From Candidatus Limnocylindria bacterium (GTDB lineage: Bacteria; Chloroflexota; Limnocylindria; P2-11E): a stretch of 45,875 nt of DNA. The notes beneath the pieces are model-generated. The model was not told the DNA's origin and made no database searches. It worked only from the letters and a program-made list of their open reading frames with translations. Shown piece by piece: positions 2,816 through 22,618 of this stretch. Position 1 is the first letter of the stretch, and each line of letters starts with the position of its first letter. Location: contig DATDEH010000015.1 of assembly GCA_036523395.1 (NCBI GenBank), positions 1 through 45,875 on the forward strand, written 5' to 3'. The position numbers and the translations under genes were made by a program.

Positions 2816-4456
2816 ATGAAGCTCGGACTGCACACGATCTTGCTCCGTGCGACTTCGACGATGCTCGTCGCAGCGCTCGCGGTCTCGGCTTGCACGAGCA
2901 CGACGACGCCACCCGGAGCATCGACCGCTCCGTCTGCGGCGGCGGCCGGGCCGGTGTCCGGCGGGACCGTGACGATCCCGATCGGCGCGGACCCGACGCT
3001 GAACCCCTGGAGTCCGAACGCCTTCGTGGAGTCGCTCTTCATCAACCGCGCGATCTTCGAGGGACTCACAAAGCCGGGCAAGGACCTTGCGCCGGCGGCG
3101 GACCTCGCCCAAAGCTGGACAGTCGCGCCGGATGGCCTGAGCTGGACGTTCAAGCTCCGCAGCGGCGTGAAGTGGAGCGACGGCAAACCCTTCACGGCCG
3201 ACGACGTCGCGTTCACATTCAACGACATCGTTCTCAAGCCAGACCTCGGCGCGCAGAACAGGGCCAGCTATGCGGCGGTCAAGAGCGTCACGGTCGTCGA
3301 TCCGACCACCGTGCGCTTCGATCTGACGCGGAAGTTCGCGGCCCTGGCGTCGTTCCTCGCCTACAACGCGGGCATCCTGCCCAAGCACGTGCTCTCCGCG
3401 AACCCGCTCACGACCACGACATTCAACAAGGGGATCCCGGTCAGCACCGGGCCGTTCAAGGTCGAGAAGTACACCTCCGGCCAGAGCGTCTCCCTGGTGC
3501 CCAACGAGAACTACTTCGGTCCGAAGCCGTTCCTCGACAAGGTCGTCTTCACCGTCGTGGCGGATCCGAACACACAGGTCGCGCAGGCGCTCTCCGGTGA
3601 CCTGCAGATCATGATCTTGGACAACAAGGCGGCGGTGGACCGCATGAAGAGCGCGGCTGGCCTTGTCGTCGTGGCGCGTCCGCTCGTGCAGTACTACTGG
3701 CTCTCGCTCAACCAGACCGACAGCCGCTTCACCGACGTGCGCGTCCGTCAGGCGTTCGTTCACGCGATCGACCGCCAGGCGATCATCAAGTCGGTCGAGC
3801 TCGGGTACGGCTCGATCGCGAACAGTCCGATCACGCCGGCCCTCGCCGCGTACTACGACCCTTCGCTCGCGTCGAAGTACCCGTACGACCCGGCGAAAGC
3901 GACCGAGCTGCTCAAGGCGGCCGGGTGGACGCCAGGCGCGAACGGCGTGCTTCAGAAGGATGGCAAGCCGTTCCAGTTCACGATGGATGTTGGACAGCGC
4001 GGCGTTCTCGAGCCGGTCAACGCGCTCATCCAGCAGGACCTGAAGAAGGTCGGCGTCGTCGTCGACCTGAACACGATGGAGTGGAACTCCTACATCCAGA
4101 AAGACGTGGTGCGTCGTGAATACACGGCCACGGTGAACTGGTGGACCTACCCAAGCGACCCGGACGTCTTCCCCTACTACCACTCCAGCGCGGCGGGCAA
4201 GGGCTTCAACATTCCGGGCTACCAGGACCCGAAGCTAGATGACCTGCTCGTGCAGGGCCAGAGTGCCAGCGACCTCGAGTCGCGCAAGGCGGTCTACAAG
4301 CAGCTCCAGCAGTACACCTCCGAGGTGCTGCCATACCTGTTCCTCTGGTACCCGCAGGAGATCGACGTGCTGAGCTCGTCGCTCAAGGGCGTGCCGGAGC
4401 TCGGCCTGCGTGACGCCATGCACTACATCGGCGAATGGTGGTTGGCCAAGAAGTGA
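2816..4456 (+). CDS. Family 5 peptide/nickel ABC substrate-binding lipoprotein
   Basis: This is the extracytoplasmic binding component of an oligopeptide/dipeptide-type importer. I chose ATG 2816, 546 residues, because a strong GGGGGAGGA ribosome-binding site lies just upstream and the product then begins with a clean lipoprotein signal. That signal is a basic start, a hydrophobic stretch, and the lipobox A-V-S-A-C with Cys26, followed by a Ser/Thr/Pro/Ala linker. Family 5 features include the early D-P-x-L-N-P-W pattern, the W-T-F-K-L-R-S-G-V-K-W-S-D-G motif near residues 108-121, and the V-R-Q-A-F-V-H-A-I-D-R segment. Two permease genes and a dipeptidase follow, which supports peptide uptake. 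No ATPase gene accompanies it. Confidence 0.92.
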   Translation: MKLGLHTILLRATSTMLVAALAVSACTSTTTPPGASTAPSAAAAGPVSGGTVTIPIGADPTLNPWSPNAFVESLFINRAIFEGLTKPGKDLAPAADLAQSWTVAPDGLSWTFKLRSGVKWSDGKPFTADDVAFTFNDIVLKPDLGAQNRASYAAVKSVTVVDPTTVRFDLTRKFAALASFLAYNAGILPKHVLSANPLTTTTFNKGIPVSTGPFKVEKYTSGQSVSLVPNENYFGPKPFLDKVVFTVVADPNTQVAQALSGDLQIMILDNKAAVDRMKSAAGLVVVARPLVQYYWLSLNQTDSRFTDVRVRQAFVHAIDRQAIIKSVELGYGSIANSPITPALAAYYDPSLASKYPYDPAKATELLKAAGWTPGANGVLQKDGKPFQFTMDVGQRGVLEPVNALIQQDLKKVGVVVDLNTMEWNSYIQKDVVRREYTATVNWWTYPSDPDVFPYYHSSAAGKGFNIPGYQDPKLDDLLVQGQSASDLESRKAVYKQLQQYTSEVLPYLFLWYPQEIDVLSSSLKGVPELGLRDAMHYIGEWWLAKK

Positions 4457-5450
4457 CCTTCGCCTGTCGGCTCCGGCTTTCCGGAGCGGCCTGGCCGCTC
4501 CGGCAGTAGCCCGCTTCCTTTTCCAGCGCGTCGCGTTGGGGGCGCTCGTGATCGTTTTCGCGAGCGCCCTCACCTTCTTCTTCGTCAACCTCGCGCCCGG
4601 CGGTCCGGCCTCGGTCATGCGATTCGACGTCACGGCCGAGCAGCGCGAGGCACTGATAAAGCGCATGGGCCTCGACAAGCCCGTCACGCAGCGATACGTC
4701 GAATGGGTCACCGGGGCGGCGCGTGGCGACTTCGGCACGTCGCTCCTGACGGACGAGCCCGTCACCCAGCGCATCGGCGAGAGACTTCCGAACACTCTCA
4801 TGCTCGCGGGCGCCGCGTTCGTGCTGTCGGTGCTGCTCGGTATCCCGATCGGTCTGATCCAGGCATTGCGCCGCGGGAGCCCGCTCGATCATGTGCTGAG
4901 CTTTCTCAGCGCGGTCGGACTCGCTGTGCCGGTGTTCTGGCTGGGCATCGTGCTGATCCTCATCTTCTCCGTGTCGCTCCACGTGCTGCCATCTGCCGGA
5001 GTGACCGGGATCACGACGGACACGTTGTTCGACCGCGCGCAGCACCTCGTCCTTCCCGCGGTGGTGCTGGCCTCGACGGTGCTTCCCACCATCGTCCGTT
5101 ACATGCGTTCGGCGGCGATCGAGGTCCTGCACGAGGACTACATCCGTACCGCCGAGTCGAAGGGTCTGGGGCCGCGCCTCGTCGTCACGCGCCACGTCCT
5201 GCGGAACGCATTGGTCCCGGTGGTCAGCGCGCTGGGGGCGCTCGTGCCGCGTCTTCTGGGTGGCGCGGTCGTCACGGAGGCGGTGTTCAGCTGGCCGGGC
5301 CTCGGCCGGCTCGCACTCGAGGCGGCTCAGGGCCGGGACTATCCGCTCATCACCGGCCTCACGGTGGTCGCCGCCGCCATCGCGGTCGGGACGACGCTGC
5401 TCGTCGATGTCGCGTACACGCGCATCGATCCACGGGTGCGAGTCGCATGA
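4410..5450 (+). CDS. DppB-type ABC permease (start uncertain)
   Basis: This is the first inner-membrane subunit of the peptide-type importer, with six helices. The permease loop motif E-A-A/E-S-K-G-L-G-P-R, followed by H-V-L-R-N-A-L-V-P, lies in the second half. The start cannot be fixed. ATG 4410 overlaps the binding-protein gene and would translate through the intercistronic hairpin. CTG 4491 and TTG 4536 are alternatives, and the last of these removes the basic N-terminus normally preceding helix 1. Conserved homology begins around R-F-L-F-Q-R-V at about 4512. Its stop overlaps the next start as ATGA at 5447-5450, indicating translational coupling. Confidence 0.85.
   Translation: MTPCTTSANGGWPRSDLRLSAPAFRSGLAAPAVARFLFQRVALGALVIVFASALTFFFVNLAPGGPASVMRFDVTAEQREALIKRMGLDKPVTQRYVEWVTGAARGDFGTSLLTDEPVTQRIGERLPNTLMLAGAAFVLSVLLGIPIGLIQALRRGSPLDHVLSFLSAVGLAVPVFWLGIVLILIFSVSLHVLPSAGVTGITTDTLFDRAQHLVLPAVVLASTVLPTIVRYMRSAAIEVLHEDYIRTAESKGLGPRLVVTRHVLRNALVPVVSALGALVPRLLGGAVVTEAVFSWPGLGRLALEAAQGRDYPLITGLTVVAAAIAVGTTLLVDVAYTRIDPRVRVA
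4470..4503 (+). promoter_or_regulatory. Intercistronic alternative hairpins
   Basis: Just after the binding-protein stop at 4456, segment 4481-4487 (CCGGAGC) can pair with 4470-4476 (GCTCCGG, loop CTTT). It can instead form part of a perfect 11-bp hairpin, CCGGAGCGGCC at 4481-4491 pairing with GGCCGCTCCGG at 4493-4503. The two structures exclude each other. Placed between binding protein and permease, they could protect the upstream message or reduce permease expression, as intercistronic repeats do in other binding-protein operons. The function is inferred. Confidence 0.6.
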
Positions 5451-12568: not shown

Positions 12569-13300
12569 TCAGCTCGCTGGTGTCAGTGTGAACATCAGGT
12601 AATGGCCGCCGGCCGGGCCGGCGGTCAGCACGAGGCTCGCGCCGGGTAGGGAATAGGCGCCCTGGCCCGCGGAGACGGTACCGGTCATGGCCGCGTCGCC
12701 ACTCACGGTGAGACTTCCGTCGAGTACGAACAGCACGCGGAGTGACGGTCCCGATTGCCGGTCGACGCCTGTTGCGGCGAGGCGGCTGTCGGTAAGCGTC
12801 TCGGTGTAGGAACCCGCGGCGATCTGCGTCAGATCGCCCGTCGTGTAGAGCTCCTTCTGTCCGGGCACGATGATCGCGAGGGGGCGCGACGCTGCCGGAC
12901 GCAGGCCGATGAACCACCAATCGTTGGCGGACGTGCCAGGGTTGACGTGCCCGTGCATGACGGCGGCACCGATGAAGGCGGCTTTGCCGGGCTGGACCAT
13001 CACGGATGCTGCGCCGTCGACGTCCATCTGGTGTGTGCCCTGGACGGTGTAAACGAAGCCGGCGATGTGCTGATGCTTGATCGATCCGCCGGCCGCCTGG
13101 GGCAGATCCACGTAGTTGACGAACAGCGCGCCCGCGGGGATCGAATCGAGTTTGCCGGATGCGAGGATCGTGGCTGTTGCGCTCGGCGGTGCCGCCGTCG
13201 CGACGGCCGGCGCGCTCGTCGGCGCCGGCGCCGCCGCGCCTCCACACGCCGCTGCGACGAACAGGACCGTCGCGACGATGGGAACGATGCGTCGGAACAC
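12569..13300 (-). CDS. Cupin-like lipoprotein
   Basis: This is a 243-residue lipoprotein. The GTG start at 13300 follows an AGGAGG site. The signal ends in the lipobox V-A-A-A-C (Cys19), then an Ala/Pro/Thr linker. The exported domain looks like a cupin, with I-K-H-Q-H-I-A-G-F-V-Y-T-V-Q-G near residues 74-88 and M-H-G-H-V-N-P near 116-122, which give a set of histidines able to bind a metal. A second beta half contains Y-T-E-T-L-T-D-S-R-L and a strand-rich C-terminus. It is clearly homologous to the C-terminal part of the gene at 14928. It lies downstream of the cyclase-CRP gene on the same strand, separated by 115 bases holding a CRP-like palindrome. The ligand is unknown. Confidence 0.8.
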   Translation of the reverse strand: MFRRIVPIVATVLFVAAACGGAAAPAPTSAPAVATAAPPSATATILASGKLDSIPAGALFVNYVDLPQAAGGSIKHQHIAGFVYTVQGTHQMDVDGAASVMVQPGKAAFIGAAVMHGHVNPGTSANDWWFIGLRPAASRPLAIIVPGQKELYTTGDLTQIAAGSYTETLTDSRLAATGVDRQSGPSLRVLFVLDGSLTVSGDAAMTGTVSAGQGAYSLPGASLVLTAGPAGGHYLMFTLTPAS

Positions 13301-13405: not shown

Positions 13406-13425
13406 GCTGTGATGTTCAGCACAGC
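13406..13425. promoter_or_regulatory. CRP-like palindrome
   Basis: The 20-base element has perfect arms GCTGTG (13406-13411) and CACAGC (13420-13425). Inside it, TGTGA-N6-GCACA at 13408-13423 differs by one base from the classic CRP half-site pair TGTGA-N6-TCACA. It overlaps the stop codon of the cyclase-CRP gene and lies about 105 bases before the cupin lipoprotein start. It is a plausible target of the adjacent regulator; a chance match cannot be excluded. Confidence 0.45.
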
Positions 13426-14918
13426 GCGCGCAGAGCCTCCGCGTCGAGGACGGTGATGGTGCCCCGGTCCATCGCGAGCGCGCCCATCCTGACGAACTGA
13501 CCGAGGGCGCGGTTCACGTTCTCGCGGCTGGAGCCGACCATCGCGGCGAGGTCGCCCTGGGGCACCCGGACGGCGATCCGGACACCGCCGTCGACCTTCT
13601 GACCGTGCTTGTCCGCGAGCTCGAGAAGCTTGTGAGCGAGCCGGCCGGGCAGGTCCAGAAAGGCGATCTCGGCCAGCTCTTCGTCACCGCGCCGGACGCG
13701 ATCGCTGAGCCTTGCGAGGAGCCGTAGCGCGAGGTCAGCGTCTTTTCGCACCACGGCGCGAAGGTCGTCCCTCCCGAGCGCGACGCAGGTCGTCGCTTCC
13801 ACAGCGATCGCGTCGGCCGTGCGGACTCCGCTGGCCTCGATCGCGTCGAGCTCGCCCAGCGTTTCGCCCGGACCGAAGAGACCAAGGACGAACTCGCGTC
13901 CGTGTCGCGAAGTGCGGGAAACGCGCACCAGACCGCTTTCGATGACGAACATGGAGTCTGCCGGCTCACTCTCTCGCGTGAGATAGGTTCCCGCAGGGAA
14001 AGACCGGCGCCGCACGCGCGGTCCCAGCCCATCGGACACTTTTGGCGCGAGGCCCGCGAACAGCGGCGTGCGCAGCAGTACAGCCATCGGCTCGACGCCG
14101 CTGCTGACCAGTGCGGCGTCGAAGGCCAGCCGATAGGTCTGGACTGGAGCGCTTCGCCCAGCCAGCGTCACGATGTCGCCGCTTAGGAACGAGAACTCCG
14201 TGGCAGCCGCGCGAGTCGCCGCGTCGACGATGGCTTCGCCTGCATCGGCACGCGCAGTCAAACGGGCCGCGGTGTTGGTGATCTCGCCGACAGCGGTGAA
14301 GTCTTTGAAGCCACCGCCGCCGACGTTGCCGCAGAATTCCTCGCCCGTGGAGATCCCGACACCGATCTCCAGCCATGGGCCCCCAGACGCCCGGTAGCCG
14401 ACGGCTTCGATGAGCGCGGCTGCGGCGGCGACCGCTTTGCGCGGATAGTCGCCGCCGCTCAGCCCTGGAACGAATAGGCCCATCACGTGGTCGCCAGCGA
14501 CCTGGCCGAGGACGGCTTCATGCTGCAGAAGGACGCGCGAGGCGATGTCATAGAACCGTTTCAGACGTACTGGGACCACGTCTCGCGGCACCGATTCCGT
14601 CAGGCTCGTATACCCGCGGACGTCAGCGAACAGGATGCTGAGCGGGACGATCGCGCCGCCTTCGGGTGCCCACTCGAGGCAGCGCGCGCAAACGTGGGGT
14701 GTCTTCTGTGATGGGCGATAACCGAGGAGACGGAACGGTAGGGTGACCGGTCCGCCGTACGGAGCGTTGCAGAACTTGCAGCGCGGCCGCCCCGGGAAGA
14801 GCGCGAACAATCTTCGTGCGAGCCGTGGTCCGAGAGTCGTCGATCCGTCGCCGCGGAGGATCGCGGACCAGTGCGCGTCCATCTCGGGGTGGTTGCCAGT
14901 TGACTCAGACACTGCCAC
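13416..14918 (-). CDS. Class III nucleotide cyclase fused to CRP-type regulator
   Basis: The 500-residue protein has four parts. Residues 47-80 carry two C-x2-C pairs resembling a zinc ribbon. Residues 92-265 are a class III adenylate/guanylate cyclase domain with metal aspartates Asp99 (F-A-D-V-R-G-Y-T) and Asp143 (G-D-H-V-M). They also carry Asp206, Asn215 and Arg219. Residues 283-400 are a cyclic-nucleotide-binding domain; Glu356 and Arg366 have the ten-residue spacing of CRP Glu72 and Arg82. Residues 420-500 are a Crp-type helix-turn-helix (G-D-L-A-A-M-V-G-S-S-R-E-N-V-N-R-A-L). The usual substrate-specifying lysine is Gln139, and the usual Asp of the G-D-x-x-N motif is Glu212, so specificity may differ. 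The start could be GTG 14918 or ATG 14882. The divergent neighbour begins within 46 bases. Confidence 0.88.
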   Translation of the reverse strand: MAVSESTGNHPEMDAHWSAILRGDGSTTLGPRLARRLFALFPGRPRCKFCNAPYGGPVTLPFRLLGYRPSQKTPHVCARCLEWAPEGGAIVPLSILFADVRGYTSLTESVPRDVVPVRLKRFYDIASRVLLQHEAVLGQVAGDHVMGLFVPGLSGGDYPRKAVAAAAALIEAVGYRASGGPWLEIGVGISTGEEFCGNVGGGGFKDFTAVGEITNTAARLTARADAGEAIVDAATRAAATEFSFLSGDIVTLAGRSAPVQTYRLAFDAALVSSGVEPMAVLLRTPLFAGLAPKVSDGLGPRVRRRSFPAGTYLTRESEPADSMFVIESGLVRVSRTSRHGREFVLGLFGPGETLGELDAIEASGVRTADAIAVEATTCVALGRDDLRAVVRKDADLALRLLARLSDRVRRGDEELAEIAFLDLPGRLAHKLLELADKHGQKVDGGVRIAVRVPQGDLAAMVGSSRENVNRALGQFVRMGALAMDRGTITVLDAEALRALC

Positions 14919-14927
14919 TTTGGGGCG

Positions 14928-16211
14928 ATGGTATCGGCGAACATGCGGCGCCTCTTCGTTGGAGCGGCCGCTGTCGCGGCGAATCTCGGGTGGCTTCAGC
15001 TGGCTCCGGCGTTCGGTCTTCCGGTCACGGCACCCGCGGGGATATTGGACCGCGCACTCGGTGCGGATCGCGAGGCTGGTCCCGCGGGCTGGGCGCTGCT
15101 GCTAGTGGGTCAGGCCGTATTCGCTGCCCTCGCGTTCCTCGTCATCCTGCCTCGAAGGCGGGTGTGGCTGGCGTCGTTCGCGTTCGTCGTTGGCGCGTGG
15201 TTCGTCTCCGGAGCTGTCCTGATGCCTGTTATCGGGCTCATCCAAGGCGCCGCGCCAGCCGGCACCGCAGCCGCTATGCAGGCGAACTTCTTCATGCTGA
15301 ACCTTGGCCTGGGGGCTGCCGCTGAGGCACTGGTTGGATGGCTGCTGTTCGGTGGTGTGATCGCAGCCGGCGCGACGCTCAACGTCACCCCGAGGGCTTT
15401 CGCGCTTGCGGCCGGCGCCGCGGCGGTCGCCGCCGTCATCGCGTTCGCGGCGCCGGCGCTCGGTGCGCAAGCAGGTTCGGGCCGGCTCGTCGAGGGCCGT
15501 ATCGAAGCGCTGCCGCCGGCACCCGTCTTCATCAGCGTGCTTGAGCTCCCGCAGCCGGCTGGTGATGCGCTCATTCCGCATCCCCCACACATCGCCGGCT
15601 TCGTGGTCGACGTTTGGGGGACAGCGACGATGGTGATCGCCGGAGCGAATGTGGACGTTGCTCCAGGTGGAGCGGTCTTCTTGCCGAACCAACAGCCCCA
15701 CGACCACGAGAATCGCGCGGCGGCTCCACTCGCGATCGCTTTGGCCGCCGCGATGGTCGGCATGACGGTCGGAGTCGTCTTGCTGCAGGGTCGTGCGCCC
15801 GCCGTCGCGTTGATGGCGGCGCTGCTGGTCGCGGGCACTGTGGCGACGATCAATCCGTTGATGAACCACTGGTACTTCATTGGTGTTCGCTCGGCCACCC
15901 AGCGTGGCGGCCCGATGCCCGTACCGGCGGGGCACCGGACATACGAGTCCGAGAACCTGACTGGCCTTGCGAGCGGGCCCTATCTGGAGCAGCTCACGCA
16001 TCGCCGGCTTGGCGCCGGCGAATCCGTTCGCGTTGTCGGCCCCGCGGCGGTCGTCGTGCTCGACGGCCAAGTCTTGATCGCCAACGATGTACGAACGTTA
16101 CGTCTGTCCGCGCAGTCCGGGACCACGATCGCGGGCGGTACGGAAGCGACAGCTCGGGTCGAGTCAGGAAGCGCGCGAGTCTTGATCGTCCAGCTGCTAC
16201 CCGCCCGTTAA
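14928..16211 (+). CDS. Membrane protein with an interrupted cupin domain
   Basis: This is a 427-residue protein with roughly five N-terminal hydrophobic segments (about 10-30, 53-74, 80-105, 120-148, 157-180) and a C-terminal cupin-like domain from residue 198. The domain resembles the lipoprotein at 12569: both have an E/D-L-P-Q-x-A-G strand, an H-I-A-G-F-V strand, a histidine-rich turn (here H-D-H at 258-260), a W-Y/W-F-I-G-x-R strand, and a Y-x-E-x-L-T-x-x-R-L helix. Here residues 264-312, a long hydrophobic stretch able to cross the membrane twice, are inserted between the histidine turn and the W-Y-F-I-G strand. ATG 14928 or ATG 14943 may start it. The function is unknown; divergence from the cyclase-CRP gene suggests a shared signalling role. 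Confidence 0.75.
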   Translation: MVSANMRRLFVGAAAVAANLGWLQLAPAFGLPVTAPAGILDRALGADREAGPAGWALLLVGQAVFAALAFLVILPRRRVWLASFAFVVGAWFVSGAVLMPVIGLIQGAAPAGTAAAMQANFFMLNLGLGAAAEALVGWLLFGGVIAAGATLNVTPRAFALAAGAAAVAAVIAFAAPALGAQAGSGRLVEGRIEALPPAPVFISVLELPQPAGDALIPHPPHIAGFVVDVWGTATMVIAGANVDVAPGGAVFLPNQQPHDHENRAAAPLAIALAAAMVGMTVGVVLLQGRAPAVALMAALLVAGTVATINPLMNHWYFIGVRSATQRGGPMPVPAGHRTYESENLTGLASGPYLEQLTHRRLGAGESVRVVGPAAVVVLDGQVLIANDVRTLRLSAQSGTTIAGGTEATARVESGSARVLIVQLLPAR

Positions 16212-16287: not shown

Positions 16288-17736
16288 CTATGGCCCCTCG
16301 CCCCGACCGAGGTCGAGCGCAACGGCCGTCACGACGTCGCCGGCCTGCTGCAGCCGCGGCGTCTCGATGAGCGCGATCGTGTCGCGAGGTGTGTGGAGGA
16401 CGTAGTCGCTCCACAGGATCAATGACGACGGGACGCCGCGCTTCGCGAACGTCGTCTGGTCACTGCCCCCGCCGCGCATCGACTGGAACGGCACGCCGAG
16501 CGTCCGAGCCGCCGCGCGGATCCGGTCGACGAGCGCGGGGCTCTCATCGGATGCCTCGAGCGTGTTGCCGCAGCACCCGATGACGTCAAGGTTCAGATAC
16601 GCGACCAGACTCTCGACCCGTCCCGGAGACGCGGCCATGCGAGCGGCGTAGGCCTCGGATCCGAGCAAGCCCTCTTCCTCGCCGGCCCACGCGACGAAGA
16701 CGATGGAACGCTTGAGCTCGGCCCGTCTCGCTGTGAGCGCGCGTGCGACCTCGATCGTGACCGCGGGCCCGGACGCGTTGTCATTCGCGGCGGCGAAGAC
16801 CGTGCCGTCGGGATCGGTGCCGACGCCGTCGAGGTGGCCGCCAATGAGGACGGCGCGTTTCGCGAGGTCCGGTTCGTTCCCGCGCAGCAGACCGACGACG
16901 TTGATGCCCTCAACATCGCGCACCGCCGTCAATGGGAGCGACATGCGCACGGTCACGCCGGTCTCGAACGCCGGCGACGGCGCGGTCGGGTTCGATCGTC
17001 GCGCGCGGACGCTGCTCTGCACCTGCGCGACGGTCCGCGCCGCGGGCGCGAGAAGCTCGTTGGCGACCCCCTCCGTGATCACGAGCACCGGGAGCGTTGG
17101 CGTGGAGAAGCGTGGGATGAACGAATAGCGGATCGAGGTGTCGCCGACGACCAGGACGCCGACCGCGCCCTCCGCGAAGGCGCTCTCGACGACGCCGCTC
17201 GCCGTCGGGCCGGTCACGAGCGCGATGCGCCCGCGAGTCGTCACGCCGGCGTAGTCATCCTGGCCGCCGCCCTTCGCGCCGCCTCCGACCACGACGACCT
17301 GTGCCTCCACGGCTCCGTCGCCGGAGCGACCGCCGACGCTCTCGGTGAAGTCGATGCGGTGCTTCCACGACCTCTCGTCCGCCCCGGTTCGCGTCAGGGT
17401 CGGCGTCGCGCTGAGATCGACGATCGGCATCGAGAAGCGCTGGAAGTACGTACCGCCGTCGCCCAGCGGCTCGAGGCCGATCGCCTTGAACTGGTCGGCG
17501 ACGTACCGCGCCGCTTCCAGGTAGCCCGCCGACCCGCTGTAGCGGCCGCCGCGTGCCGGATCGGCGAGGTACGCGATGTGCTCGCGCGCCCGCGGTCCGT
17601 CGAAGACACCGGCGCCGGCGACGACGATCGCGGTTGACGGCGATACGGTAGATGAGACGCGCGGCGTCGGCGACGCGATGACCGGCGTCGGTCCGCACGA
17701 CGCGACGATGAGTGCGGCGAATAGGAGCCGCCTCAA
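16288..17736 (-). CDS. M28-family metallopeptidase lipoprotein
   Basis: This is a 482-residue exported zinc aminopeptidase-like protein. The TTG start at 17736 overlaps the preceding stop as TTGA. A short signal ends in the lipobox I-V-A-S-C (Cys14). A protease-associated-like region near residues 150-240 precedes the M28 catalytic part. Likely zinc ligands are His in I-G-G-H-L-D-G (about 297), Asp in A-N-D-N-A-S-G (about 317), the Glu pair in A-G-E-E-E-G-L-L-G-S (about 352), Asp in N-L-D-V-I-G, and His in L-H-T-P-R-D-T (about 446). It is a paralogue of the peptidase half of the adjacent fusion gene. Together they probably release amino acids or small peptides outside the cell for the coupled permeases. 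Confidence 0.88.
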   Translation of the reverse strand: MRRLLFAALIVASCGPTPVIASPTPRVSSTVSPSTAIVVAGAGVFDGPRAREHIAYLADPARGGRYSGSAGYLEAARYVADQFKAIGLEPLGDGGTYFQRFSMPIVDLSATPTLTRTGADERSWKHRIDFTESVGGRSGDGAVEAQVVVVGGGAKGGGQDDYAGVTTRGRIALVTGPTASGVVESAFAEGAVGVLVVGDTSIRYSFIPRFSTPTLPVLVITEGVANELLAPAARTVAQVQSSVRARRSNPTAPSPAFETGVTVRMSLPLTAVRDVEGINVVGLLRGNEPDLAKRAVLIGGHLDGVGTDPDGTVFAAANDNASGPAVTIEVARALTARRAELKRSIVFVAWAGEEEGLLGSEAYAARMAASPGRVESLVAYLNLDVIGCCGNTLEASDESPALVDRIRAAARTLGVPFQSMRGGGSDQTTFAKRGVPSSLILWSDYVLHTPRDTIALIETPRLQQAGDVVTAVALDLGRGEGP

Positions 17737-20105
17737 CCGGTCGCCGCCATCTCGAGCACCGACTGCAACACGACCTCGCCCGACGCGCGGAGGCGCGCGG
17801 GATCGACGGTCGTTGGCGTATCGCCGACGGTGTGGAACGGGCCGACCTCCGTGCCTGTGATCATCACCGCGGGCACCCGCCGGCGCAGGAATGTGAAGTG
17901 ATCGCTGCCCCCGATGCCCGATGGGTACTCGAGGTCGTAGCCGAGGCGGTCGGCCGCGGAACGCAGGCGCTGGTGCAGCTCGAAGCTCTCGTCGGACGCC
18001 GCGAGACCGCCGCAGCATCCGTCCATGTCGAGATTGATGAAGGCCACGATGTTCTCGGCGCGCCACGGTTGCGTGACGGCGTTGGCGAGGAACGCGTCCG
18101 AGCCGAGGAGTCCCTCCTCCTCGCCCGCGAAGGCCACGAAGATGACGGAGTTCTTCAGCATCGCCTTGTTCGCGGCGAGCACCCGCGCGATCTCGATCGT
18201 GACCGCCGGACCCGACGCGTTGTCGTTCGCGGCCTGGAACACCCTCCCGTCCGGGTCGGTCCCGACGCCGTCGAGGTGTCCGCCTATGACCATGAATTTC
18301 TTCGAGCGCTCGGGATCGGTCCCGCGCAGCATGCCCACCACGTTCGCCGTGCGCACCGGCTCGGGCTGCCGGAGCGAGACCTCGATGCGAACGCGCGTCG
18401 GCGTATCGAACGAGAGTGGCTGAGGTGTGCTGCGGACCAGGCTGGGCCGTTGATCCGCGCGGCGGCGTCGCTCCTGGAGCGCGCTGCGCAGGTCGGCGAT
18501 GCGCTTTCCCGACGGCGCGATGAGCTCGTCGGCCACCGTTTCGGTCACGGTGATGACCGGGATGACGTCCTTCTCGAAGAACGCCGAGTACGACGGCCGG
18601 ATGATGCCGAGCTCGGGTGCTGCGACGAATATCACGGCTTTGGCGCCGGAGCGGATCGCCGCGTCGATCGGATCGCCCTGTGTCGGTCCGGCGATCAGGA
18701 CGATGTTCCCCTCGGGGTGCGTTCCCTGGTAGTCGCTGTAATCCTGGGTCCGGATCCCACCACCGACGTACACGACGTTCCCCTCGGCCGTGCCGCTGCC
18801 AGCGCGGCCACCGACGCGCTCGCTGAAGTCGGCGCGCGGCGCGTAGATCCTCGGATCGTCGCCGGTGCGTTCGAACACCGGCATCGCGCTCAGCCTGACG
18901 ATGTTCGTTCCCCAGTTCTGGAGGTACGTGCCGTCGCTTCCGATGGGCTCGAGGCCGATCGACTTGAACTGCTCCGCGACATACCGCGCGGAGTCGTTGT
19001 AACCGGCGGACCCGGTGTACCGTCCCGCGCGCGCCGGGTCGGCCAGCCAGTCGACATGCGCGCGCGCCTTGGCCGAGTCGAACTCGCGCGCGATCGGGAC
19101 ATAGCTGCCCGCCGGTCCGACGTAGGGGCTCGCGAGGCGGAGGGCGACGAAGATCGCCACGACCGCGAATCCGGTACGCAGCGACAGGAGCTTGCCAAGC
19201 GCGACCGGTGCGCGCTCGAAGAACGTCCGCAGACCGTGCCCCATCAGGTTGAAGCCGAGGATCGCGCTCGCGAACGCGGTCGCGGGAACGAGCGCGATCC
19301 ACTGCGCGCGGTAGATCTCGAACTTCCCCTGCGCCAGAATTGCGCCCCACTCCGTCGTCGCGAAGATGAACTCGGTCCCGCCCCCGCGACCGGTGACATC
19401 GGTCGACACGTTCTGCCCGCCGCCCACGACGATGCCGAGAAAGCCGAGCTCGCCGAGCACGAGGAGGATCGCGCTCGCTTCGAGCGCCGCGGCCACCGCG
19501 AGCATCGGAAGCAGATTCGGAAGCACGTGGCGCGCGAACACAGCGAACTCCGAGAGGCCGAGCGATCGGGCGGCCTCGAGGAACGGACGCCCGCGCAGTG
19601 CGACGACGGCGGAGCGCGTCGCGCGGCCGAAGCCCCACCAGCCGGTGATCGCCAGCGCCGCGGCGAAGGCACTGACGCCCGAGCGGATGTCGAGGGCGAA
19701 GATCCAGAGCATCGCGAAGAGGACCGTCGGGAACGCGCCGAACGCGTCGATGAGCGCGGACACGCCGCGGTCGAGCGACGAGCCGGCGAACCAGCCCGCG
19801 AGCGCGCCGAGCGTCGTCCCAACGACGAGGCGCACCGCGAGCACGACGAACGCGATCGTGAGCGTCGCGCGCGCGCCGTACATGACGCCCGCCCACAGGT
19901 CGCGGCCGTTGCGATCGGAGCCGAGCGGGTAGCCGTACGTTCCTGGGTCGTACGGCGCGAGGACCGAGCGCGGACCGTCGATGATCAGCGTCGTGCTCTT
20001 GAGCGGATCGACGTTCGTGAGGAGCGGCGCCGCGAGTCCGAGGAAGATCCAGCCGCCGATGATCGCCGCGCCGATGATGAGCTGCCACGTGAGCGCGCGG
20101 CGCAT
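17733..20105 (-). CDS. DppC-type ABC permease fused to M28 zinc peptidase
   Basis: A single open frame of 790 residues joins two proteins. Residues 1-300 are a DppC/OppC-type permease: an N-terminal helix at 8-28, Y-P-L-G-S-D-R-N-G-R-D-L at 59-70, and the coupling loop S-L-G-L-S-E-F-A-V-F-A-R-H-V-L-P at 181-196. Residues 311-327 form an extra hydrophobic helix. Residues 343-790 are a protease-associated region and an M28 peptidase with apparently complete zinc ligands: His610, Asp628, Glu662/663, Asp693 and His757. The extra helix would place the peptidase on the outer face. ATG 20105 overlaps the DppB-type stop, and the stop overlaps the start of the M28 lipoprotein gene. No frame break is visible. 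Confidence 0.87.
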   Translation of the reverse strand: MRRALTWQLIIGAAIIGGWIFLGLAAPLLTNVDPLKSTTLIIDGPRSVLAPYDPGTYGYPLGSDRNGRDLWAGVMYGARATLTIAFVVLAVRLVVGTTLGALAGWFAGSSLDRGVSALIDAFGAFPTVLFAMLWIFALDIRSGVSAFAAALAITGWWGFGRATRSAVVALRGRPFLEAARSLGLSEFAVFARHVLPNLLPMLAVAAALEASAILLVLGELGFLGIVVGGGQNVSTDVTGRGGGTEFIFATTEWGAILAQGKFEIYRAQWIALVPATAFASAILGFNLMGHGLRTFFERAPVALGKLLSLRTGFAVVAIFVALRLASPYVGPAGSYVPIAREFDSAKARAHVDWLADPARAGRYTGSAGYNDSARYVAEQFKSIGLEPIGSDGTYLQNWGTNIVRLSAMPVFERTGDDPRIYAPRADFSERVGGRAGSGTAEGNVVYVGGGIRTQDYSDYQGTHPEGNIVLIAGPTQGDPIDAAIRSGAKAVIFVAAPELGIIRPSYSAFFEKDVIPVITVTETVADELIAPSGKRIADLRSALQERRRRADQRPSLVRSTPQPLSFDTPTRVRIEVSLRQPEPVRTANVVGMLRGTDPERSKKFMVIGGHLDGVGTDPDGRVFQAANDNASGPAVTIEIARVLAANKAMLKNSVIFVAFAGEEEGLLGSDAFLANAVTQPWRAENIVAFINLDMDGCCGGLAASDESFELHQRLRSAADRLGYDLEYPSGIGGSDHFTFLRRRVPAVMITGTEVGPFHTVGDTPTTVDPARLRASGEVVLQSVLEMAATG

Positions 20106-21028
20106 CAGGACGCCGCTCCGGTGGACGCATGCACCAGACGCGCCGCGGCCGCGTCGAGCGCGAACCGGGTCACCGCGATCGTCACCACGAGAGCACCGAG
20201 CAGCGTGCCGGCGGTCGCGGCATCGAATCGCTGGATCGCCTGCAGCAGCGAGAAGCCAAGCCCCGGCCACGAGAAGAACACTTCGACGACCGGCAGCGTC
20301 GAGAGTCCGATCGAAAGCGCGGCGGCGATCGCGCCGAGGATCGGCACGAGCGCGTTGCGCAGCGCATGGCGACCGATGACGACGCGCTCGAGGAGGCCCT
20401 TTGACCGTGCGGTGCGCACATGGTCCGCGCCGAGTTCTTCGTCGACGGCGACGAACGCGAAGTTCGCGATCTGGGCGAACGGGCGCGCGGCGAGGACGAA
20501 CGTCGGAAGGATGAGATGGTCGTCGACGCCGAAACCGAAGCTCGGCCAGAGGCGGATGTTGTAACGGCGCACCATCTCGGCCGACAACAGGATGAGGAGG
20601 ATCGCGAGGAGGAACGACGGCGTCGAGATCACCGCGGTCATGCTGCCGACGAGCACCGCCCGCAGCCGCGTGCTGCGGGTGGCTGCGGCGACCACACCGA
20701 CGGTGACGCCGAACACCGTGGCCAGCGTCACCGCGAGGCCGACGAGCAGCATGCTCTTGGGGTACGCGTCGAGCAGCACCTCGCCCATCGAGCGCCGCCG
20801 TCCACCGAGGATCGATGTCGACGTGGCCTCGCCGAGCGAGCCCTGGAAGAGGCTCGCGAAGTAGTCCTGTGTCCCTTCCCAAGCTTGCTGGAGGATGTCG
20901 GCGATGGGCGCGTGATCGAAGCGGGAGCGTGCCGCGACGAGGGCGATCTGCGCGAGCACGACGATGAGAACGAAGGTGAAGATGACGAGCAGGACGCGCG
21001 TGAGGATCGCGACGGCAGCGCGACTCAA
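20105..21028 (-). CDS. DppB-type ABC permease
   Basis: This is a peptide-type permease of about 307 residues and the partner of the permease-peptidase fusion. It has an N-terminal helix, then a long extracytoplasmic region, then the helical core. The coupling loop T-A-R-S-K-G-L-L-E-R-V-V-I-G-R-H-A-L-R-N-A-L-V-P and the later F-F-S-W-P-G-L-G motif are typical of DppB. TTG 21028 is the best start: it overlaps the stop of a possible seven-codon leader as TTGA, and homology begins just after it. The start remains uncertain. Its stop shares a base with the ATG of the fusion gene (TGATG). No binding protein or ATPase gene lies in this operon. Confidence 0.85.
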   Translation of the reverse strand: MSRAAVAILTRVLLVIFTFVLIVVLAQIALVAARSRFDHAPIADILQQAWEGTQDYFASLFQGSLGEATSTSILGGRRRSMGEVLLDAYPKSMLLVGLAVTLATVFGVTVGVVAAATRSTRLRAVLVGSMTAVISTPSFLLAILLILLSAEMVRRYNIRLWPSFGFGVDDHLILPTFVLAARPFAQIANFAFVAVDEELGADHVRTARSKGLLERVVIGRHALRNALVPILGAIAAALSIGLSTLPVVEVFFSWPGLGFSLLQAIQRFDAATAGTLLGALVVTIAVTRFALDAAAARLVHASTGAAS

Positions 21029-21076: not shown

Positions 21077-22618
21077 ATGAAGTTCTATGTCACGACCGCC
21101 ATTGCCTACGTCAACGACCGGCCCGGACTCCATCACGGTTACGAGTTCACGGGGGCGGACGCGCTTGCTCGCTTTCACCGCCAGCGCGGCGACGAGGTGT
21201 TCTTCCTCACCGGTACCGATGAGAACGCGACGCGCAACGAGCAGGCGGCCAAGGAGCAAGGAATACCGACCAGACAGCTCGTCGACAAATATGCCGCCCA
21301 ATTCCAGCAGATGGCTGATCTTTGGAACATCTCCTACGACCGCTTTATCCGCACGACGGACGCCGACCACGTCGCGGGTGTCCAGGAGTTCGTGCGCCGC
21401 TGGATCGCGAACGACGACGTGTATCTCACCACCTACGAGGGCTGGTACTGCACCGGGTGCGAAGCGTTCTACGAGGAGAGCGATCTCATCAACGGGCAGT
21501 GTCCGATCCACCCAACGCGGCAGATCCAGCGTCTCAAAGAGGAGAACTACTTCTTCCGTCTGAGCAAGTACGAGCAGCGCCTCAAGGACCTGTACCGCGA
21601 GCATCCCGAGTTCTGCGTGCCCGAGATACGTCGCAACGAGGTCCTCGGCTGGCTGGACCGAGGGCTACGCGACATCAGCGTGTCGCGGCGGAATCTCACC
21701 TGGGGGATCCCGTTCCCCGACAAGCCTGGCCACACGGTGTATGTCTGGTTCGACGCGCTCATCAACTACGTGACCGGCGTCGGCTTCGGGGCCGACGAGA
21801 CCACGTTCAAGAAGTGGTGGCCGGCCGACCTGCATGTCATCGGCCTGGACATCACACGCTTTCACTGCATCTTCTGGCCAGCCATGCTGATGTCGGCCGG
21901 CATCGAGTTACCGCGGCAGGTCTACGCGCACGGCTTCTTGCACTACGCGGGTGAAGGCAGACTTTCGCGTTCGAGCGGCAACATGATCGATCCCATCGCC
22001 GCCGCGAACGAGTGGGGGAGTGATGCGCTTCGATACCTACTCCTGCGCGAGGCGCCGTTCGCGAAGGATTCGCCGATCTCCCCGGAGATCCTCGACCTTC
22101 GCTTCAACGCCGATCTCGCGAACGGGCTCGGCAACCTGGTCTCCCGCGCCACGAAGATGGTCGAGCTGTACTCCGACGGCCGGGTGCCAACGCCAGGGAA
22201 GGGCGGTCCCTCAGAGAAGGCGCTGCGCGAGACTGCCGAGCGCGCGCTCGAGACGCACGATGTATCGGCCGCGCGGCTCGACTTCTCCGATGCCCTCGCC
22301 GCGATCTTCAGCGTCGTCGAAGAGGCGAACAAGCATTTCCAGCGCACCCAGCCGTGGCAGGCGGTGAAGGACCCAGCCCGGAAGGACGAGGTCGACGCGG
22401 CTCTTTACGCCGGCCTCGAGGCGGTCCGCCTTGTCGCGTACCTCCTGTTCCCGTACATGCCGACGATCAGCCCGCGCATCGCCGAGGTGCTCGACGTCGA
22501 ATCGCCGGCGTCTGCGAAATGGGAGGCCGTCGCGCGTTGGGGCCTGCTGCAGCCGGGGAAGCAGATCCGCTCCGCGCCGTCGCTTTTCCCAAGGCTCGAG
22601 CGAGCGAAGACGGCCTGA
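21077..22618 (+). CDS. metG: Methionyl-tRNA synthetase (divergent motifs)
   Basis: This is a 513-residue class I synthetase that should charge tRNA-Met in the cytoplasm. The order of parts is normal: catalytic Rossmann fold, a single zinc knuckle C-T-G-C with C-P-I-H at about residues 120-142, the W-F-D-A-L-I-N-Y motif near 223-230, and the helical anticodon domain from about 350. There is no C-terminal tRNA-binding extension. The two signatures are unusual. The HIGH region reads R-P-G-L-H-H-G-Y instead of the common P-H-I-G-H, and the KMSKS region reads R-L-S-R-S-S-G-N. tatD follows ten bases after the stop, as in many genomes, which favours a housekeeping role. Confidence 0.88.
   Translation: MKFYVTTAIAYVNDRPGLHHGYEFTGADALARFHRQRGDEVFFLTGTDENATRNEQAAKEQGIPTRQLVDKYAAQFQQMADLWNISYDRFIRTTDADHVAGVQEFVRRWIANDDVYLTTYEGWYCTGCEAFYEESDLINGQCPIHPTRQIQRLKEENYFFRLSKYEQRLKDLYREHPEFCVPEIRRNEVLGWLDRGLRDISVSRRNLTWGIPFPDKPGHTVYVWFDALINYVTGVGFGADETTFKKWWPADLHVIGLDITRFHCIFWPAMLMSAGIELPRQVYAHGFLHYAGEGRLSRSSGNMIDPIAAANEWGSDALRYLLLREAPFAKDSPISPEILDLRFNADLANGLGNLVSRATKMVELYSDGRVPTPGKGGPSEKALRETAERALETHDVSAARLDFSDALAAIFSVVEEANKHFQRTQPWQAVKDPARKDEVDAALYAGLEAVRLVAYLLFPYMPTISPRIAEVLDVESPASAKWEAVARWGLLQPGKQIRSAPSLFPRLERAKTA

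Follow-up and report, generated by a model that had tools for sequence, protein, structure and literature searches.

According to the textbook view, type I ABC importers need a binding protein that delivers the substrate and switches on the ATPase. This need has been directly shown for DppBCDF, a translocator that has no activity unless DppA is present (PMC12136057). In the E. coli complex, the scoop motif located between TM1 and TM2 of DppB enters the DppA cleft, and residues E41 and R42 contact DppA (PMC12136057). In GlnPQ, the extracytoplasmic receptor domains are tethered to the translocator (PMC8025302).

The system that we found in the window (the whole stretch of 45,875 nucleotides analyzed here) resembles the DppBCDF-DppA and OppBCDF-OppA importers (E. 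coli, 8z1v and 8z21; M. tuberculosis, 8wd9 and 8j5q), since its permeases B and C match theirs in sequence and the EAA loops are kept. It differs from them by the extra helix and the M28-fold tail borne by C and by a long TM5-TM6 loop, and it has neither a DppB-type scoop nor an adjoining binding protein or ATPase. As in GlnPQ and OpuA, an extracytoplasmic domain would be tethered to the translocator, and both the topology and the lost binding-protein contacts suggest that the M28 tail binds the substrate and itself docks on the pore. However, GlnPQ and OpuA carry standard binding-protein folds, whereas here the Opp/Dpp C permease carries, beyond an extra helix, an M28 peptidase fold. The PA-domain M28 aminopeptidases (2ek8, YwaD/BSAP 6hc6, PaAP 8ac9) have the same fold, and the window protein has the full zinc ligands and base, but these aminopeptidases are free secreted enzymes while the window M28 domain is joined to a permease. 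The transferrin receptor ectodomain is a membrane-anchored, catalytically dead M28-fold receptor and ranks among the best structural matches of the dead class II domain described below; unlike the fused tails, it lies outside any transporter and binds a protein.

Importer-fused receptors, peptidase-fold receptors and Opp/Dpp permeases are all known already; what would be new is their combination, together with a scoop-less Opp/Dpp branch. Our literature search, which left subscription journals mostly outside, returned no paper on this architecture or on such a branch. With an Opp/Dpp branch that has an M28 fold in place of an adjoining binding protein or gripping element, one could test directly how little of a receptor an importer needs. 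Moreover, active sites that range from intact to dead would offer a ready record of an enzyme becoming a receptor, in bacteria that have not been cultured and are known chiefly through metagenome assemblies.

The fused permease-peptidase gene and its operon

The preliminary description of this locus had proposed that a single 790-residue frame contains a full DppC-type permease, an extra hydrophobic helix at residues 311-327 and an outward-facing M28 peptidase with all expected zinc ligands. The frame is present on the minus strand, within a three-gene operon formed by permease B, the permease C-M28 fusion and an M28 lipoprotein:

20105..21028, minus strand: partner permease B, TTG start inferred, 4-base overlap (ATGA) with the fusion gene, no PGDP...GLDxP scoop segment
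17733..20105, minus strand: fused C permease-M28 gene, ATG at 20105, TGA end at 17733, 790 aa (OppC/DppC-type permease ~1-298, extra helix ~306-330, PA and M28 peptidase region ~340-790)
19212..20105, minus strand: permease C domain, residues 1-298, with the cytoplasmic EAA coupling motif FLEAARSLGL at residues 175-184
19353..19454, minus strand: enlarged outward TM5-TM6 loop, GELG(218) to EWG(252), 34 residues versus 13 in ordinary C permeases
19116..19190, minus strand: extra transmembrane helix 7, residues ~306-330, positive N-side flank
17736..18344, minus strand: M28 catalytic domain, residues ~588-790, with H610, D628, E662 (base), E663, D693 and H758
16288..17736, minus strand: M28 peptidase lipoprotein, signal peptide and VASC lipobox present, start codon TTG within a four-base overlap (TTGA) with the stop of the fusion

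Both domains were found in this one frame far above their Pfam cut-offs: BPD_transp_1 matches residues 96-297 with 62.7 bits (cut-off 26.4) and Peptidase_M28 matches residues 588-782 with 123.1 bits (cut-off 21.3). The solved OppC 8z21 matches the permease domain with an E value of 8e-23; none of the curated OppC/DppC/NikC equivalog cut-offs was reached, the best score being that of NCBIfam Opp2C (144.6 bits versus 300). The sixth permease helix peaks at residues 270-288, and the announced extra helix was recovered beyond it as a hydrophobic stretch at about 301-330. The zinc ligands were also borne out, as H610, D628, E663, D693 and H758 could all be located along with the general base E662.

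DppC has six helices, with a cytoplasmic EAA loop between TM4 and TM5 (PMC12136057). Given this topology and the EAA motif at residues 175-184, positioned from the sequence and from the DppC topology of the same paper, the fusion chain would be cytoplasmic past TM6, so that helix 7 would bring the tail outside the cell, which favors the outward orientation first proposed for the peptidase. The flanks of helix 7 have a net charge of +2 on the N side and are neutral or negative on the C side, and the signal peptide and lipobox of the adjoining M28 paralog agree with an extracellular workplace for this peptidase family. We infer that the M28 domain would be seated over the pore mouth. An AlphaFold model of the whole fusion, built from four sequences, had a pLDDT of 34 and was left unused.

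The M28 lipoprotein is 49% identical to the fused M28 domain and has an intact active site, and the order B, fusion and M28 lipoprotein is also found in genomes G002 and G003. Upstream of the operon, a gene at 21077 is read in the opposite direction; by eye, it resembles methionyl-tRNA synthetase. All ABC signatures of the window lie more than 18 kb from the operon. The window also contains an SBP_bac_5-like gene (3095-4201), 13 kb from the fusion and accompanied by ordinary permeases of its own.

A separate branch of Opp/Dpp permeases

In a tree of 37 C permeases, 24 tailed sequences and one untailed sequence split from 12 ordinary ones with a support of 100/100, in a sampling that was not neutral, as the ordinary rows came mainly from the window genome (G000) and the tailed rows were picked by similarity to the query. 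Loop length is an independent mark that agrees with the tree: the outward-facing TM5-TM6 loop, from (G/A)ELG to EWG, has 25-42 residues in the extended C permeases and 13 in the ordinary ones. Judged by these two sequence characters, the extended C permeases are a distinct branch of Opp/Dpp permeases. The untailed member (L116 6280-8081, genome G393) has the long loop of the branch, and its state is either a loss or ancestral.

The partner B permeases were compared with DppB, in which the scoop segment reads PGDP...GERG...GLDKP. An alignment of DppB with an ordinary B permease encoded in the window (4500-5447) runs across the segment; the fusion's partner aligns only downstream of it. By motif count, PGDP...GLDxP is found in 12 of 12 ordinary B permeases versus 0 of 41 extended ones, the latter made up of two sets of 21 and 20, with one truncated frame among the 20 (L180) that carries little weight. 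SBP_bac_5-like genes adjoin 11 ordinary loci. Beside the extended loci we found none in the examined flanks, several of which lie near contig ends, so that a distant neighbor could be missed in some; nor did the fetched flanks of these loci contain an oligo_HPY match or an ABC signature. From this gene content, the branch appears to have lost its separate binding protein. As for the ATPases, the window genome encodes 15 SBP_bac_5 proteins and only four oligo_HPY ATPases, hence shared ATPases are probably usual in this organism; its two OppD/OppF-type pairs, at C39 and C96, are candidate partners of the fusion.

Tail classes, catalytic residues and a candidate receptor

Profile searching with the fusion across Chloroflexota genomes brought up full-length relatives in further families of this phylum, and the idea that the fusion is restricted to the window's genus was rejected on these wider matches. 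A first scan by peptide patterns, a method limited to close relatives, had given only three of them. In another Chloroflexota lineage, searched around genome G346, 41 of 199 genomes gave matches that span the junction (from model position 1-2 to at least 585 out of 592). Twenty of these stretches were read, and all 20 encode an M28-like tail on an extended C permease, about half of them with permease B in the same polypeptide of ~1,000-1,500 residues. Homologues are thus far from being always split into two genes; they are fused, often with permease B included.

Single polypeptides of ~1,180-1,500 residues consisting of B, C and an M28-like tail were seen in L114 (7006-10644), L178, L181-L187, L189 and L191. 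In L153 (876-10112, G186 C121), one permease B is followed by three tandem C-M28-like fusions, all without the catalytic Glu. A neighbor of ~1,600 aa with two M28 domains recurs (L113 1979-6778, L176 1205-6169, L177 and L179); one M28 copy is intact and the other is often degraded, and the L113 protein also matches Peptidase_MA_2.

Tails that diverge further fall into several classes, in all of which the EAA coupling motif is readable. Class II tails (PA and dead M28) occur in seven genomes, including the window genome itself at C87. They have no Pfam M28 match, and a sequence search found no solved relatives, but hhalign against an M28 profile set gave a probability of 98.8%. AlphaFold predicted a PA and M28 fold with a pLDDT of 84, from an input alignment that included true M28 sequences and so favored that fold; the best PDB fold match of this model is the aminopeptidase 2ek8, with the transferrin receptor among the next matches. 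Class III tails, found in three genomes, reached a probability of only 7% against M28 by hhalign and are likely M28-derived on a motif-level alignment. Two genomes have class IV tails, which match no Pfam family, on extended C permeases (L065 3477-5474 and L066 5141-7081). In the single-contig genome G181, an extended C permease (L115 8798-11044) bears a PQQ-type propeller replacing M28, and its gene overlaps an amidohydrolase gene.

When we compared the catalytic residues, we found all six catalytic and zinc residues in 5 of 32 fused M28-like domains versus 20 of 24 unfused relatives; calls were made from a multiple alignment in which single positions are uncertain in the most divergent rows. 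The five complete fused domains are those of the window protein and its three intact relatives in the same family (the four f1 proteins, see below) and that of G186 C12. The general-base Glu is kept in 12 of 32 fused domains versus 21 of 24 unfused ones, which leaves 20 of the 32 without a base; G346 C77 is an example of a relative with a dead domain. That motifs have been lost is evident on inspection, with GGE or GGD in place of GEE in some rows, and the M28 tree requires three changes between the fused and unfused states. On these alignments, the unvarying element would be an M28-fold domain tethered to a transporter that lacks a binding protein, and proteolysis would be optional.

Because the tether, the long outward loop and the absence of the scoop are constant while catalysis varies, we placed first the reading, towards which we lean slightly, that a tethered M28-fold receptor replaces the binding protein, trimming peptides in the window version and being non-catalytic in most relatives. 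After the six-helix C permease, the seventh helix would take the chain outside and set the M28-fold domain over the pore mouth, where it would capture peptides by the N-terminus and hand them to the pore with the aid of the enlarged TM5-TM6 loop. In the window version, the intact zinc site would probably also trim peptides, together with the M28 lipoprotein of the operon, so that this domain would probably have aminopeptidase activity in addition to its receptor role; most relatives have lost this site, and their domain would be a pure receptor. ATPases would be supplied from elsewhere in the genome and coupled via the preserved EAA loops. We infer the receptor role, the direction of import, the peptide substrate and the shared ATPase alike. 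Whether the whole forms a lineage-wide Chloroflexota type I ABC branch, in which an attached and mostly dead M28-fold ectodomain replaced the binding protein and a peptidase turned into a specificity subunit, seems to us evenly poised. Several observations speak against the receptor reading: with 15 SBP_bac_5 proteins encoded in the window genome, a binding protein could come from elsewhere, the extended operons have no ATPase gene, the G181 tail is a propeller, and two other classes are not recognizably M28 by Pfam. For the propeller and the non-Pfam-M28 tails, a receptor role could be proposed by analogy only.

The preliminary description had instead envisaged a transporter with peptide digestion at its own pore mouth. 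According to this explanation, which we consider unlikely though deserving of some weight, the M28 domain acts chiefly as an enzyme, freeing amino acids or short peptides at the pore, and binding is done by something else. The invariant catalytic residues of the four f1 proteins, the M28 lipoprotein encoded next to the window fusion and the ~1,600-aa two-M28 protein beside the fusion in several relatives would all fit, and the idea may hold for the window protein, whose active site is intact. It is at odds with the family as a whole, in which 27 of the 32 fused domains lack at least one catalytic or zinc residue, yet the system persists with its fused layout and long loop and with the scoop still lost, and no catalytic residues are left in the class II and III tails.

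Remaining alternatives and the integrity of the fused frame

The lack of a binding protein and of the scoop motif, as well as outer domains so variable as to include a propeller and the secreted peptidases that adjoin them, could also be expected of a transmembrane signaling or mechanical device in which ATP hydrolysis moves the outer domain (cf. FtsEX, MacB) and so regulates it or partner enzymes, with no import. This appears improbable to us, since both the B and C subunits are kept and their fold, with its EAA loops, belongs to the type I importers and not to the type VII group of FtsX and MacB. We find it still harder to believe that this is an ordinary peptide importer which borrows one of the genome's many binding proteins and has the tail as an accessory: parts are probably shared in a genome with 15 SBP_bac_5 proteins and four oligo_HPY ATPases, but the C loop differs and none of the 41 extended B permeases has the scoop segment with which a borrowed protein would be gripped as in DppB.

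Intact fusions are also found in G002 (88%), G003 (66%) and G012 (63%, another genus), all from the same family as the window genome, and in these four f1 fusions (n=4, window included) all six catalytic and zinc residues are invariant. Between the window genome and G002, the whole frame aligns with no gap and has a dN/dS of 0.12 (permease, 0.045; linker and helix 7, residues 296-345, 0.23; tail, 0.16-0.18). Such ratios are those of a genuine, continuously translated fusion under purifying selection. An assembly error or chance read-through joining two genes might be suspected in a MAG of 128 contigs, but it is ruled out for practical purposes by the intact fusions of the other three genomes, with an identical junction in all four and a dN/dS well below 1 across it, a layout that recurs in many families and a different outer domain fused in the one-contig genome G181. 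In the fragmented MAG G004, the fusion (81-88%) changes frame around residues 166-170 and repeats a stretch around 349-377, possibly through faulty assembly.

Elsewhere in the window, a protein encoded at 13416-14918 on the minus strand combines nucleotide-cyclase, cyclic-nucleotide-binding and Crp-type DNA-binding domains and is possibly a regulator that makes its own signal. Its gene is flanked by those of two cupin-like proteins, at 12569-13300 (minus strand) and 14928-16211 (plus strand), of which one is lipoprotein-like and the other has membrane helices.
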